DNA of 47,152 nt, from positions 1 to 47,152 of the forward strand of contig JAISTR010000022.1 of NCBI GenBank assembly GCA_031272515.1, given 5' to 3'. Made by a program: the position numbers and the translations under genes. The notes beneath the pieces are model-generated. The model was not told the DNA's origin. It did not search any database and saw only the letters and a list, made by a program, of their open reading frames with translations. The DNA is from Erysipelotrichaceae bacterium. GTDB lineage: Bacteria > Bacillota_I > Bacilli_A > Erysipelotrichales > Erysipelotrichaceae. Positions 29,109 through 35,022 of this stretch are shown here, one piece after another (within the stretch, counting starts at the first letter, position 1; each line of letters begins with the position of its first letter).

Positions 29109-29816
29109 TTAATGTGCCATTGCTTCGGTTGCTGCCTGAATCAGCCAGGCAAACAGTGCCCGCTGATCCGGATCCTTCTGCAAGCGTTCCGGGTGCCACT
29201 GCACCGCCAGGATATTGCCGCGCTCAATGGTTTCAATCAGTCCGTCTTCCGCAGTCGCGCTGACAATAAATTCCGGAGCCAGCTCATCGATGGCCTGGTG
29301 ATGGAAACTGTTGACCAGAGTGCCGCTTCCCAGCAATGAATGGGCCAGGGTTCCGGCTTCCACCGCAACGGTATGCGAGGGCAGCTTGCGCATGCCTTCT
29401 TCCATATAGGGAGCGTGGTGCAGGGTGGTGGGATACTCGGTGGGAATATCCTGAATCAGGGTTCCGCCAAAGGCGACATTGATAATTTGAATGCCCCGGC
29501 AAATACCCAGAATCGGTTTATTCACTTTCGCAAAATTCTGGATTAAAAGTAAATCCGTTTCATCGATGTCGGTATCAATGCCTTTGGAAGCCCGGTTTTC
29601 CTGATTGTAGTAAAAGGGATCCACATCGCCACCCCCGGCCACAACCAGACCGTCAAAGCGGGAGACGATATCCTTCATGTCATAGGCATTATAAAAACCG
29701 CTGAGGTAGGTGTTCGCCTGTTCCAAAAACGGAACCAGATAGTCATTCATGGTATGCATGAGATTGTAGCTGTCGAAGCGGTCACGGCGGCTGGTAATCA
29801 GTATATTGGGTTTCAT
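29109..29816 (-). CDS. Class I glutamine amidotransferase-like hydrolase (peptidase C26, PuuD-like)
   Basis: A 235-aa cytoplasmic hydrolase of the gamma-glutamyl-GABA hydrolase family, which cleaves gamma-glutamyl amide bonds. The nucleophile is Cys106 in GICRGIQI; the His-Glu pair is in VQWHPER near residue 203; the oxyanion loop VVAGGGDVDP lies near 58. AAGGAGGG precedes the start, and a TATAAT box lies upstream on the minus strand. It is transcribed away from the aldo/keto reductase from a shared 85-bp intergenic region. No polyamine genes are nearby, so the substrate is open. Confidence 0.88.
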   Translation of the reverse strand: MKPNILITSRRDRFDSYNLMHTMNDYLVPFLEQANTYLSGFYNAYDMKDIVSRFDGLVVAGGGDVDPFYYNQENRASKGIDTDIDETDLLLIQNFAKVNKPILGICRGIQIINVAFGGTLIQDIPTEYPTTLHHAPYMEEGMRKLPSHTVAVEAGTLAHSLLGSGTLVNSFHHQAIDELAPEFIVSATAEDGLIETIERGNILAVQWHPERLQKDPDQRALFAWLIQAATEAMAH

Positions 29817-31113: not shown

Positions 31114-31189
31114 AATAAGTGCAAAAAAAGCCAACAGATGCATAATTTTTACGTTATTGTTGAGTGATTGCGGCACAAAAATTGATTTA

Positions 31190-31218
31190 TCACACAAAAA
31201 TATCTAAAAATCACACAA
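31190..31218 (+). promoter_or_regulatory. Direct-repeat activator site of small RNA 1
   Basis: TCACACAA at 31190 and again at 31211, exactly 21 bp apart. The second copy begins 48 bp before the -10 box TATACT (31259-31264). The same spacing recurs at small RNA 2. There is no good -35 box, so activation by a protein bound here is likely. Confidence 0.55.
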
Positions 31219-31258
31219 TATCACATTTTCTGATGATAATATTGCCGGATTTGGACCC

Positions 31259-31264
31259 TATACT
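31259..31264 (+). promoter_or_regulatory. -10 box of small RNA 1
   Basis: TATACT ends 6 nt before the GTAAGC stem that should open the RNA. Confidence 0.6.
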
Positions 31265-31270
31265 GTACTT

Positions 31271-31388
31271 GTAAGCAGAACAACGCTTACCTGTGCGGAC
31301 CTCTTCTCCTACAACTTCCCATTACAAAGAAATCCGTACAGATTCTATCCCCTTAAAAAAGAGAAAAAAAGCCGGCGGCTTTTTTTCT
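31271..31388 (+). ncRNA. Small RNA 1 of a tandem homologous pair
   Basis: About 117 nt. Elements in order: hairpin GTAAGC-8 nt-GCTTAC (31271-31290); a 9-bp helix CTGTGCGGA with TCCGTACAG enclosing a long C/U-rich loop that contains CCTCTTCTCCTACAA and TTCCC; a single-stranded ATCCCCTT; and a terminator (AAAAAGCC-GGC-GGCTTTTT). The loop and the CCCC segment are complementary to Shine-Dalgarno sequences, the pattern of RsaE/RoxS- or csRNA-type regulators of translation. It lies in a 540-bp gap with no gene. I cannot match it to a named RNA family. Confidence 0.72.
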
Positions 31389-31408
31389 TTACATTTGTTT
31401 TGCCACTT

Positions 31409-31437
31409 TCACACAATCGGTTTTTGATTTCACATGA
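31409..31437 (+). promoter_or_regulatory. Direct-repeat activator site of small RNA 2
   Basis: TCACACAA at 31409 and TCACATGA at 31430, again 21 bp apart, with the second 48 bp before the -10 box (TATTAT at 31478, preceded by TGC as an extended -10). Confidence 0.55.
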
Positions 31438-31474
31438 GATAACATAAAGAGCAGATAATTCAATGATAATTCCT

Positions 31475-31483
31475 TGCTATTAT
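31475..31483 (+). promoter_or_regulatory. Extended -10 box of small RNA 2
   Basis: TGCTATTAT ends 6 nt before GTAAGC, the same distance as in copy 1. Confidence 0.6.
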
Positions 31484-31489
31484 TTCACT

Positions 31490-31604
31490 GTAAGCTAATC
31501 ATTGCTTACCAGTACGGACCTCTTCTCCTACAATTCCCAAAAACAAAATCCGTACTGAAGTTCTATCCCCTTAAACGGAAAAAAGGCTGTCCCGGCCTTT
31601 TTTC
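31490..31604 (+). ncRNA. Small RNA 2 of a tandem homologous pair
   Basis: About 115 nt with the same plan as copy 1: GTAAGC-8 nt-GCTTAC; a helix CAGTACGGA with TCCGTACTG around the same CCTCTTCTCCTACAA loop; then TTCTATCCCCTTAAA; then a terminator (AAAAAAGGC with GCCTTTTTT). Compared with copy 1 the second base pair of the long helix changes from U-A to A-U and a G-U becomes A-U, so both sides changed together and the fold is supported. The apical loop of the first hairpin and the 3' linker have diverged freely, while the anti-Shine-Dalgarno segments are nearly identical. Confidence 0.72.
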
Positions 31605-31613
31605 TGTTATAGT
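31605..31613 (+). promoter_or_regulatory. Extended -10 of the NUDIX gene, leaderless arrangement
   Basis: TGTTATAGT ends 6 nt before the ATG at 31620, so transcription should begin at or next to the start codon. No Shine-Dalgarno sequence is present between. Confidence 0.5.
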
Positions 31614-31619
31614 GTTTGC

Positions 31620-32183
31620 ATGGATGAAACTCTAGAGCTGTTAAAATACTTTCCCGACACGGTATTTCCCAAAGAACCGCTGGAAACCCTGCGGCTGACG
31701 GTAAGGGCCTTGGTCAAACGGGAAGACGGAAAATTCGGCTTTCTTAAAATCGAGGGTGAGGATGAGCTGGGCTATCACAATTACCTGGATTTGTGCGGCG
31801 GCGGTGTAGAAGAGGGGGAAAGCCTGGACCAAGCGATGATTCGGGAAACCGGGGAGGAGCTGGGCTTTGCGGTCAGACAGCTTAGTTGTCTGGGACCGGT
31901 GGCCTATGACTACCATCTGATCAGACGGCGGACCCTGGAATACCTTTATATTGTGGAAGTCGATACCGGCAGCCAGAAGACAGACCGGACCGAAGCAGAG
32001 CGACTTTTAATCAAGGAAATCGAATGGCTGAGCTTAGAGGAGGCGTTGAAGCGCTTAAAACAGGTATCCGGTTCCATCTGGGCCGGGATGATTCAGGCGC
32101 GTCACCTGTTTTTTGTCGAGTATTATTTAAAGACCTTGACTGCTTCCAACAGCAAAGGGGAAGCCAGAGAGTCATTGCGGTAG
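31620..32183 (+). CDS. NUDIX hydrolase
   Basis: A 187-aa Mg2+-dependent pyrophosphohydrolase acting on nucleoside diphosphate derivatives, substrate unknown. The Nudix box is intact at ~61-83 (GGGVEEGESLDQAMIRETGE followed by ELGF). The N-terminus (LRLTVRALVKREDGKFGFL) and the C-terminal helix WLSLEEALKRL fit the fold. The ATG has no ribosome site, and a -10 box lies 6 nt upstream, so the mRNA is probably leaderless. The 3' end overlaps the convergent YtqB gene by 61 bp. Confidence 0.9.
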   Translation: MDETLELLKYFPDTVFPKEPLETLRLTVRALVKREDGKFGFLKIEGEDELGYHNYLDLCGGGVEEGESLDQAMIRETGEELGFAVRQLSCLGPVAYDYHLIRRRTLEYLYIVEVDTGSQKTDRTEAERLLIKEIEWLSLEEALKRLKQVSGSIWAGMIQARHLFFVEYYLKTLTASNSKGEARESLR

Positions 32184-34273: not shown

Positions 34274-34642
34274 ATGGCTGTGAAATCCGTGAATATCAGT
34301 ATTCGTGTCGATGAATCCGTGAAAACTGCTGCGGAGGAGGTGTTTCAGAATCTGGGAATCAATCTTACCGCTGGTCTGAATTTGTATCTTTACCAAGTTG
34401 CCAGACAAGGGCGGATTCCCTTTGAATTAACAACCGGTAAATATGAGCAGTCAAGGATACAGCCATTTCCGAAAAACCGGTACTTTGCACAAGGGACAGA
34501 CGAAATCTGGCAAAAAGCCAGAATCAAAAAAAGCGACTTGGCAGAGGGCCTGCCCTATGGTTTTGGCAGTATGAAAGATGAAATTTGGATTTCCGATGAC
34601 TTTGATGAACCTCTGGATGAAATGACGGAGTATATGGAATGA
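34274..34642 (+). CDS. Hybrid antitoxin: RelB/DinJ-like N-terminus with VapB/DUF2281-like C-terminus
   Basis: A 122-aa antitoxin. Residues 1-60 are a ribbon-helix-helix DNA-binding domain of RelB/DinJ type (VNISIRVDESVKTAAEEVF, NLGINLTAGLNLYLYQVARQ). The C-terminal tail (GFGSMKDEIWISDDFDEPLD) matches the toxin-wrapping tail of antitoxins that pair with PIN toxins, the DUF2281-like GxxKGxIxxSxDFDxPL pattern, rather than a RelE or YafQ partner. The DNA-binding part should repress the promoter upstream, and the tail should neutralise the next gene product. AAAGGAGA precedes the ATG. The stop overlaps the toxin start by 4 bp. Confidence 0.85.
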   Translation: MAVKSVNISIRVDESVKTAAEEVFQNLGINLTAGLNLYLYQVARQGRIPFELTTGKYEQSRIQPFPKNRYFAQGTDEIWQKARIKKSDLAEGLPYGFGSMKDEIWISDDFDEPLDEMTEYME

Positions 34643-35022
34643 AGATAATTCTGGACACCCGTACTGCTCTCTGGTTTCTTACAGGTTCCAACCGTCTTTC
34701 CCAAAGCGCCAAACTGGCAATCGAAGAAGTACAGGATGACATCGGGGTCAGCGTTGTGAGCTTGTGGGAGTTTACCATCAAGCACAGCTTGAAAAAGTTG
34801 GAGTACAGCGGAGGAGTGATGGATTTTTATCGGGCTCTCGCCGCAAATAAATGGGCGATTCTACCGATAACCGGTGCGCATCTTAAGGCGCTGGAGAAAT
34901 TGCCACTATTGCACAGGGATCCCTTTGACCGTATGTTAATAGCTACTGCAGTGGCAGAGCAGGCAGTACTGGTATCCGGGGATGAAAACATTCATCAATA
35001 TGAAATTGATTGTCTTTGGTAG
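34639..35022 (+). CDS. PIN-domain toxin (VapC-like ribonuclease)
   Basis: A 127-aa PIN-domain nuclease. The acidic active-site residues are visible: Asp6 (IILDTRTALW), Glu44 (SLWEFTIK), Asp97 with Asp94 (HRDPFDRMLIA) and Asp115 (VSGDENIHQY). In most relatives the opening is LLDTHALLW; here the His is Arg. VapC-type toxins cleave tRNA or rRNA and stop translation when the antitoxin is degraded. ATGA overlap with the antitoxin couples translation. A terminator follows. Confidence 0.9.
   Translation: MKIILDTRTALWFLTGSNRLSQSAKLAIEEVQDDIGVSVVSLWEFTIKHSLKKLEYSGGVMDFYRALAANKWAILPITGAHLKALEKLPLLHRDPFDRMLIATAVAEQAVLVSGDENIHQYEIDCLW

Follow-up and report, generated by a model that had tools for sequence, protein, structure and literature searches.

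The closest described counterparts of the RNAs reported here come from Listeria and the streptococci. The LhrC1-5 RNAs of Listeria monocytogenes are multicopy RNAs of 111-114 nt whose CU-rich/UCCC sites are redundant, lying in a stem loop, in a single-stranded linker, and in the terminator loop (PMC4132741). Three redundant UCCC sites bind the ribosome site of lapB, LisRK is mandatory, Hfq is unneeded for target repression, and a regulator-responsive element lies upstream of -53 (PMC4132741). In streptococci, several related csRNAs per genome are under CiaR, which is bound to a direct repeat; they carry unpaired anti-Shine-Dalgarno stretches between stem-loops and comprise two-stem-loop and terminator-only types (PMC3091779). 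C-rich loop motifs also contact Shine-Dalgarno sequences in RsaE/RoxS and other UCCC sRNAs of the Firmicutes (cited in PMC4132741).

Here we analyze a stretch of 47,152 nucleotides, taken as a whole and called the window, from Erysipelotrichaceae bacterium GCA_031272515.1 (contig JAISTR010000022.1, positions 1 to 47,152, forward strand). Two tandem units in the window are members of a previously undescribed sRNA family that spans the Erysipelotrichaceae. The design is already known, and the novelty lies in the family together with its operator and clade. In titles and abstracts of the open-licence literature we found no sRNA described in Erysipelothrix, Holdemania, or the Erysipelotrichaceae, and one structured-RNA survey names the class only in passing, as host of some of its motifs.

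Anatomy of the Window Units and a Third Copy

The initial annotation had proposed two homologous units, each with a GTAAGC hairpin, a 9-bp helix around a C/U-rich loop, an exposed stretch, and a terminator. This anatomy, with its coordinates, holds in both copies (table 1), as does the claimed promoter spacing: both -10 boxes end exactly 6 bases ahead of the first stem. Transcription is predicted to start near 31271 for copy 1 and near 31490 for copy 2. The folding energies are -35.3 and -37.0 kcal/mol for copies 1 and 2, with z values of -6.71 and -7.61, and 0 of 200 shuffles were as good. Three terminator-like sites were found where 0.3 are expected, both sRNA terminators being recognized. 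A search of Rfam 15 at curated gathering scores returned 0 matches in the window, riboswitch families included, and only two tRNAs on 20 related loci; matches at permissive thresholds were chance matches only.

Table 1. Positions of the sRNA Units, Their Promoter Elements, and the Flanking Genes in the Window.
Feature	Position	Strand	Basis or composition
Peptidase C26 / class-I glutamine amidotransferase gene	29109..29816	-	Pfam PF07722
Operator of copy 1	31190..31229	+	TCACAC 31190, TCACAC 31211, TCACAT 31221; spacings 21 and 10 bp
-10 box TATACT, copy 1	31259..31264	+	Sequence
sRNA copy 1	31271..31390	+	Sequence, fold, model R2 64.3 bits, terminator call
Copy 1 hairpin 1	31271-31290	+	GTAAGC/GCTTAC stem, 8-nt loop
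Copy 1 helix 2	31291-31299 paired with 31333-31341	+	9 bp
Copy 1 C/U loop CCTCTTCTCCTACAA	31300-31314	+	
Copy 1 exposed TTCTATCCCCTTA	31343-31355	+	
Copy 1 terminator	31360-31390	+	
Operator of copy 2	31409..31448	+	TCACAC 31409, TCACAT 31430, TAACAT 31440; spacings 21 and 10 bp
-10 box TATTAT, copy 2	31478..31483	+	Sequence
sRNA copy 2	31490..31608	+	Sequence, fold, model R2 70.5 bits, terminator call
Copy 2 hairpin 1	31490-31509	+	GTAAGC hairpin
Copy 2 helix 2	31510-31518 paired with 31549-31557	+	
Copy 2 C/U loop CCTCTTCTCCTACAA	31519-31533	+	
Copy 2 exposed TTCTATCCCCTTA	31561-31573	+	
Copy 2 terminator	31574-31608	+	
NUDIX hydrolase gene	31620..32183	+	Pfam PF00293

A search of the genome for GGACCTCTTCTCCTACAA matched exactly at three sites: both window copies and a third copy, on contig C29, that the initial annotation lacked. 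Copy 3 folds like the window copies (z -7.6) and lies downstream of feoB and a small Cys-rich ORF, preceding two membrane proteins with LuxR-type DNA-binding ends. Copies 2 and 3 are more alike than copies 1 and 2. The source genome has at least three paralogous copies.

Distribution across the Erysipelotrichaceae

A first covariance model, built from the three copies of the source genome and one relative, matched 42 of 273 Erysipelotrichaceae genomes; it was rebuilt from 38 matches to give model R2. This model found relatives in 60 of the 272 other genomes (61 of 273 with the source genome, about one fifth of the sample), and 27 of 60 genera have matches when the source genus is counted; the weakest matches (E 0.003 to 0.02) were only partly inspected and some may be false, and with the stricter filters of the many-genome searches weak members can be lost. 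Those of the weak matches that were inspected have the family's overall layout; a good operator score is lacking for L136, L138, and one L123 copy of three. Named carriers include Holdemania filiformis, H. massiliensis, Erysipelothrix tonsillarum, and E. urinaevulpis. Tandem copies are common and occur in several genera, for example as a row of three in G220 and as pairs in G193, G198, G147, G029, and G014, and a genome has up to five matches. What had been annotated as an undescribed regulated sRNA pair is thus well supported and was understated: the pair belongs to a family that spans the clade, shares an operator, and has three or more copies in this genome.

Outside the family, R2 gave a single match in 43 other genomes of the order (G039), a false one inside an ORF that by eye resembles a tRNA synthetase, and a 395-genome Bacilli sample yielded nothing further outside the Erysipelotrichaceae. 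Most two-mismatch matches to an 18-base pattern in relatives lacked the anatomy (the one in G035 is real), and pattern matches in Aquificota, Lachnospiraceae, Bartonella, and others had flanks without hairpin, operator, or terminator and were rejected. A scan of viral contigs gave three matches, and the one whose flanks were read had no family surroundings.

A Covarying Helix and Conserved Unpaired Stretches

The covariation first claimed for helix 2 has little basis in the window pair itself. Between the two copies the U-A to A-U change is double-sided and the G-U to A-U change is one-sided. The claim is borne out by the homologs in other genomes. Among 30 distinct sequences, in an alignment fitted to the model, 98.3% of helix 2 cells are paired and seven of eight pairs have changes on both sides; sliding the partner strand as a control lowers pairing to 20-46%. 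RNAalifold recovers the same helix from a structure-free alignment, with double changes in four of six pairs.

Two unpaired sequences stay constant in the alignment: CTCTTCTCCT of the loop and TCT(A/T)TCCCCTT of the linker. A C-rich loop and linker are found in nearly all members, many of which add ATCCCCTT in the loop (shown on a small inner hairpin in Erysipelothrix); in members at a greater distance only CCCC-type loops are left. The terminator loop is C-rich in several members, for example TCCCCTTA, in some genera only. Most members have a hairpin of variable sequence before helix 2, built most often around GTAAG or GCAAG; the automatic stem finder used for this hairpin also takes chance stems. 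A covarying helix combined with unpaired motifs conserved across genera marks these RNAs as a new sRNA family.

A Shared Operator and a Second sRNA Type

Direct repeats that the initial annotation did not contain lie upstream of both window promoters. They are TYACAY repeats at 10-bp spacing, and copies 1, 2, and 3 have an extra repeat 21 bp upstream. A weight matrix from 60 members describes a 20-bp direct repeat with the consensus TTCACATAATTTAACATAAT, scoring 20.3 bits for copy 1 (31210-31229) and 12.8 bits for copy 2 (31429-31448). The operator reaches at least 12 bits in 57 of the 60 members, the top 1% of shuffled upstreams being at 9.5; these scores are optimistic, the matrix having been trained on the same 60 sequences. 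Its position, mostly starting 75-90 nt ahead of helix 2, is narrow without this having been imposed. An operator shared at a fixed distance is a further mark of a new sRNA family.

Of the four strict-repeat sites in the source genome, three precede the sRNAs and the fourth is on contig C27. The best-scoring operator of the genome is this fourth one (L101 1179-1196, G000:C27), with no recognizable sRNA behind it; opposite to it, the plus strand from about 1200 to 1450 looks structured by eye, ahead of a gene at 1454, and has no Rfam match. Across eight other genomes six sites of the strict repeat were found; family members, short C-rich sRNAs, and protein genes each follow two of them. Operator-like repeats before protein genes in Erysipelothrix-genus genomes, at L106 (G203:C1:283163) and L107 (G204:C11:87720), may be chance.

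The short C-rich sRNAs form a second type, which came to light because the operator alone was used as a guide. They consist of TTCTCCCTTTCTCT or CTCTCCCTTTCTT followed by a terminator behind the same operator, and one of the two located by the strict repeat lies directly upstream of the NUDIX gene. The operator matrix finds more of them in other loci. A CUCCCUUUCU-like stretch with a terminator was seen in L105 (G152:C22), L109 (G006:C38 near 67331), L031/L033, L130 near 3187, and L132 near 2963.

Since the same repeat also precedes this second type, a single regulator appears to control the C-rich sRNAs as a set. It is probably an OmpR/PhoB-type response regulator, to judge from direct repeats spaced 10 bp that precede a poor -35 region; such repeats, with 21-bp phasing, fit OmpR/PhoB-type activation better than palindrome binders. 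The data neither favor nor disfavor phosphate (PhoP) regulation, which we considered because the repeat resembles a PhoP box; two PstB-like genes in the source genome score below the curated cut-off. Somewhat unlikely, in our opinion, is a real sRNA family whose repeat is bound by a regulator of another type, or by a repressor instead of an activator. It would suit the fact that in most of the loci examined no OmpR-type gene adjoins the sRNAs, but the repeat geometry speaks against it, as do the seven OmpR-type regulators encoded in the source genome and, in G193, a response regulator/histidine kinase operon directly after the tandem sRNAs (L142 3433-5900). None of those seven genes has an obvious operator. 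In G194 (L121) the same regulator gene as in G193, the only one seen beside the sRNAs, is again directly downstream of them, and it has no clear ortholog in the source genome. For the OmpR/PhoB-type protein at the operator this adjoining response regulator is a candidate, a lead and not proof.

Proposed Action on Ribosome-Binding Sites

We put forward, with moderate confidence, that these are vertically inherited, trans-acting, multicopy sRNAs, switched together by one regulator, whose C-rich stretches block ribosome sites. Each copy of about 115-120 nt would be transcribed from an activator-dependent promoter, and a regulator on the 10-bp-spaced repeats, probably of the OmpR/PhoB family, would switch the copies on together, by activation rather than repression. 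The freely covarying stems would act as a scaffold on which C-rich stretches are exposed. In the helix-2 loop these are CUCUUCUCC or CCCCUU, sometimes both together; the linker shows UUCU(A/U)UCCCCUUA, and the terminator loop contributes in some species. The stretches most likely pair with a set of mRNAs at their G-rich ribosome-binding sites, which would block translation without Hfq, as LhrC and the csRNAs do. No Hfq match was found in the source genome, which is 97% complete. Silencing through Shine-Dalgarno pairing appears the best mechanism mainly by analogy with LhrC and the csRNAs.

AAGGGGA(A/T), complementary to the linker, lies 2-8 bases before ATG 61 times in the source genome against 10 in reversed controls, and is in excess in all six genomes tested, which shows that such ribosome sites exist and not that they are targets. 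Against 45 translation starts of the source genome, 17 of 200 of its own shuffles pair as well as the loop, a marginal excess, and 66 of 200 as well as the exposed TTCTATCCCCTTAA linker, no excess; the true anti-Shine-Dalgarno beats all its shuffles. Partial lists of AAGGGGA-type genes from the source genome and G196, which represent two genera, have no homologs in common. Complementarity of the C-rich parts to G-rich Shine-Dalgarno sequences is present but weak beyond composition, and the initial proposal that these RNAs silence translation is still an inference.

The main rival is a protein sponge, in which the repeated C-rich motif, displayed in loops and linkers, would titrate a protein that binds C-rich RNA, in the way that CsrA is titrated by CsrB/RsmY RNAs. 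Such a role would fit the presence in each RNA of several short motifs, almost identical while the stems that carry them change freely, the up to five matches per genome, and the weak target-pairing statistics. We nonetheless think it quite improbable: we know of no C-rich-binding protein partner in these bacteria, the motif differs from the GGA motif of CsrA, the conserved CUCUUCUCCU and UCUWUCCCCUU exceed in length what a minimal protein site requires, and the close analogs work by base pairing (PMC4132741). More speculatively, and doubtful as a whole, a dedicated Erysipelotrichaceae response regulator might have a regulon of almost only sRNAs, of both types, and run a whole stress response via RNA, possibly in part as a protein sponge.

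Gene Neighborhood

In the window, in Holdemania, and in several other genera the sRNA repeatedly has peptidase C26 and NUDIX genes in its vicinity, which argues for its vertical inheritance. A small ORF pair at 34274-35022 of the window resembles by eye a RelB/DinJ-type antitoxin followed by a PIN-domain-type toxin. That the RNA is a cis-acting leader or attenuator of NUDIX or another neighbor, ending in a conditional terminator, is very hard to credit: copy 2 does end some 12 bases ahead of the NUDIX start and NUDIX is a recurrent neighbor, but there is no consistent co-oriented downstream gene, the nearest downstream ORF being convergent in 25 of 60 members, so that the sRNA is not a leader; the other downstream genes vary (a membrane LuxR-type protein, a response regulator, and others), each tandem copy has its own operator and terminator, and no Rfam riboswitch matches.

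Comparison with Known sRNA Systems

The likeness first drawn to RsaE/RoxS and the csRNAs stands for the csRNAs, to which LhrC can be added, and not for RsaE/RoxS; it is one of design only, with no detectable homology. The likeness to LhrC may extend to multiple copies (here three) and redundant C-rich sites, with C-rich terminator loops in some genera only, and to an upstream regulator element. The family differs in its conserved sequences (CUCUUCUCC, UUCUWUCCCCUUA), its separate 5' hairpin, its clear operator consensus, and its clade, and neither Rfam gathering scores nor R2 in the Bacilli sample outside the Erysipelotrichaceae detected homology to LhrC. The csRNAs likewise comprise several sRNAs under one operator repeat, of longer and short types; their unpaired anti-Shine-Dalgarno stretches may have a counterpart in the C-rich parts here, which are complementary to Shine-Dalgarno-like sequence weakly beyond composition. 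The CiaR box is NTTAAG-N5-TTTAAG (11 bp), whereas the repeat in the Erysipelotrichaceae family is TTCACA-N4-TTAACA (10 bp); the loop of this family sits within a long covarying helix, and the anti-AUG (CAU) is not conserved in its alignment. RsaE/RoxS, usually single copy, also have C-rich loop motifs, but match the Erysipelotrichaceae RNAs neither in sequence nor by model.

This would be the first clade-wide multicopy sRNA system with its own operator in the Erysipelotrichaceae, to which gut bacteria (Holdemania) and the genus Erysipelothrix with its animal pathogen belong. Together with the csRNAs and LhrC it would make one more instance of low-GC Gram-positives that have several redundant C-rich sRNAs under one regulator, and with this additional case convergence becomes testable. 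Model R2 and the operator matrix offer a direct route to the regulator, its signal, and the targets.
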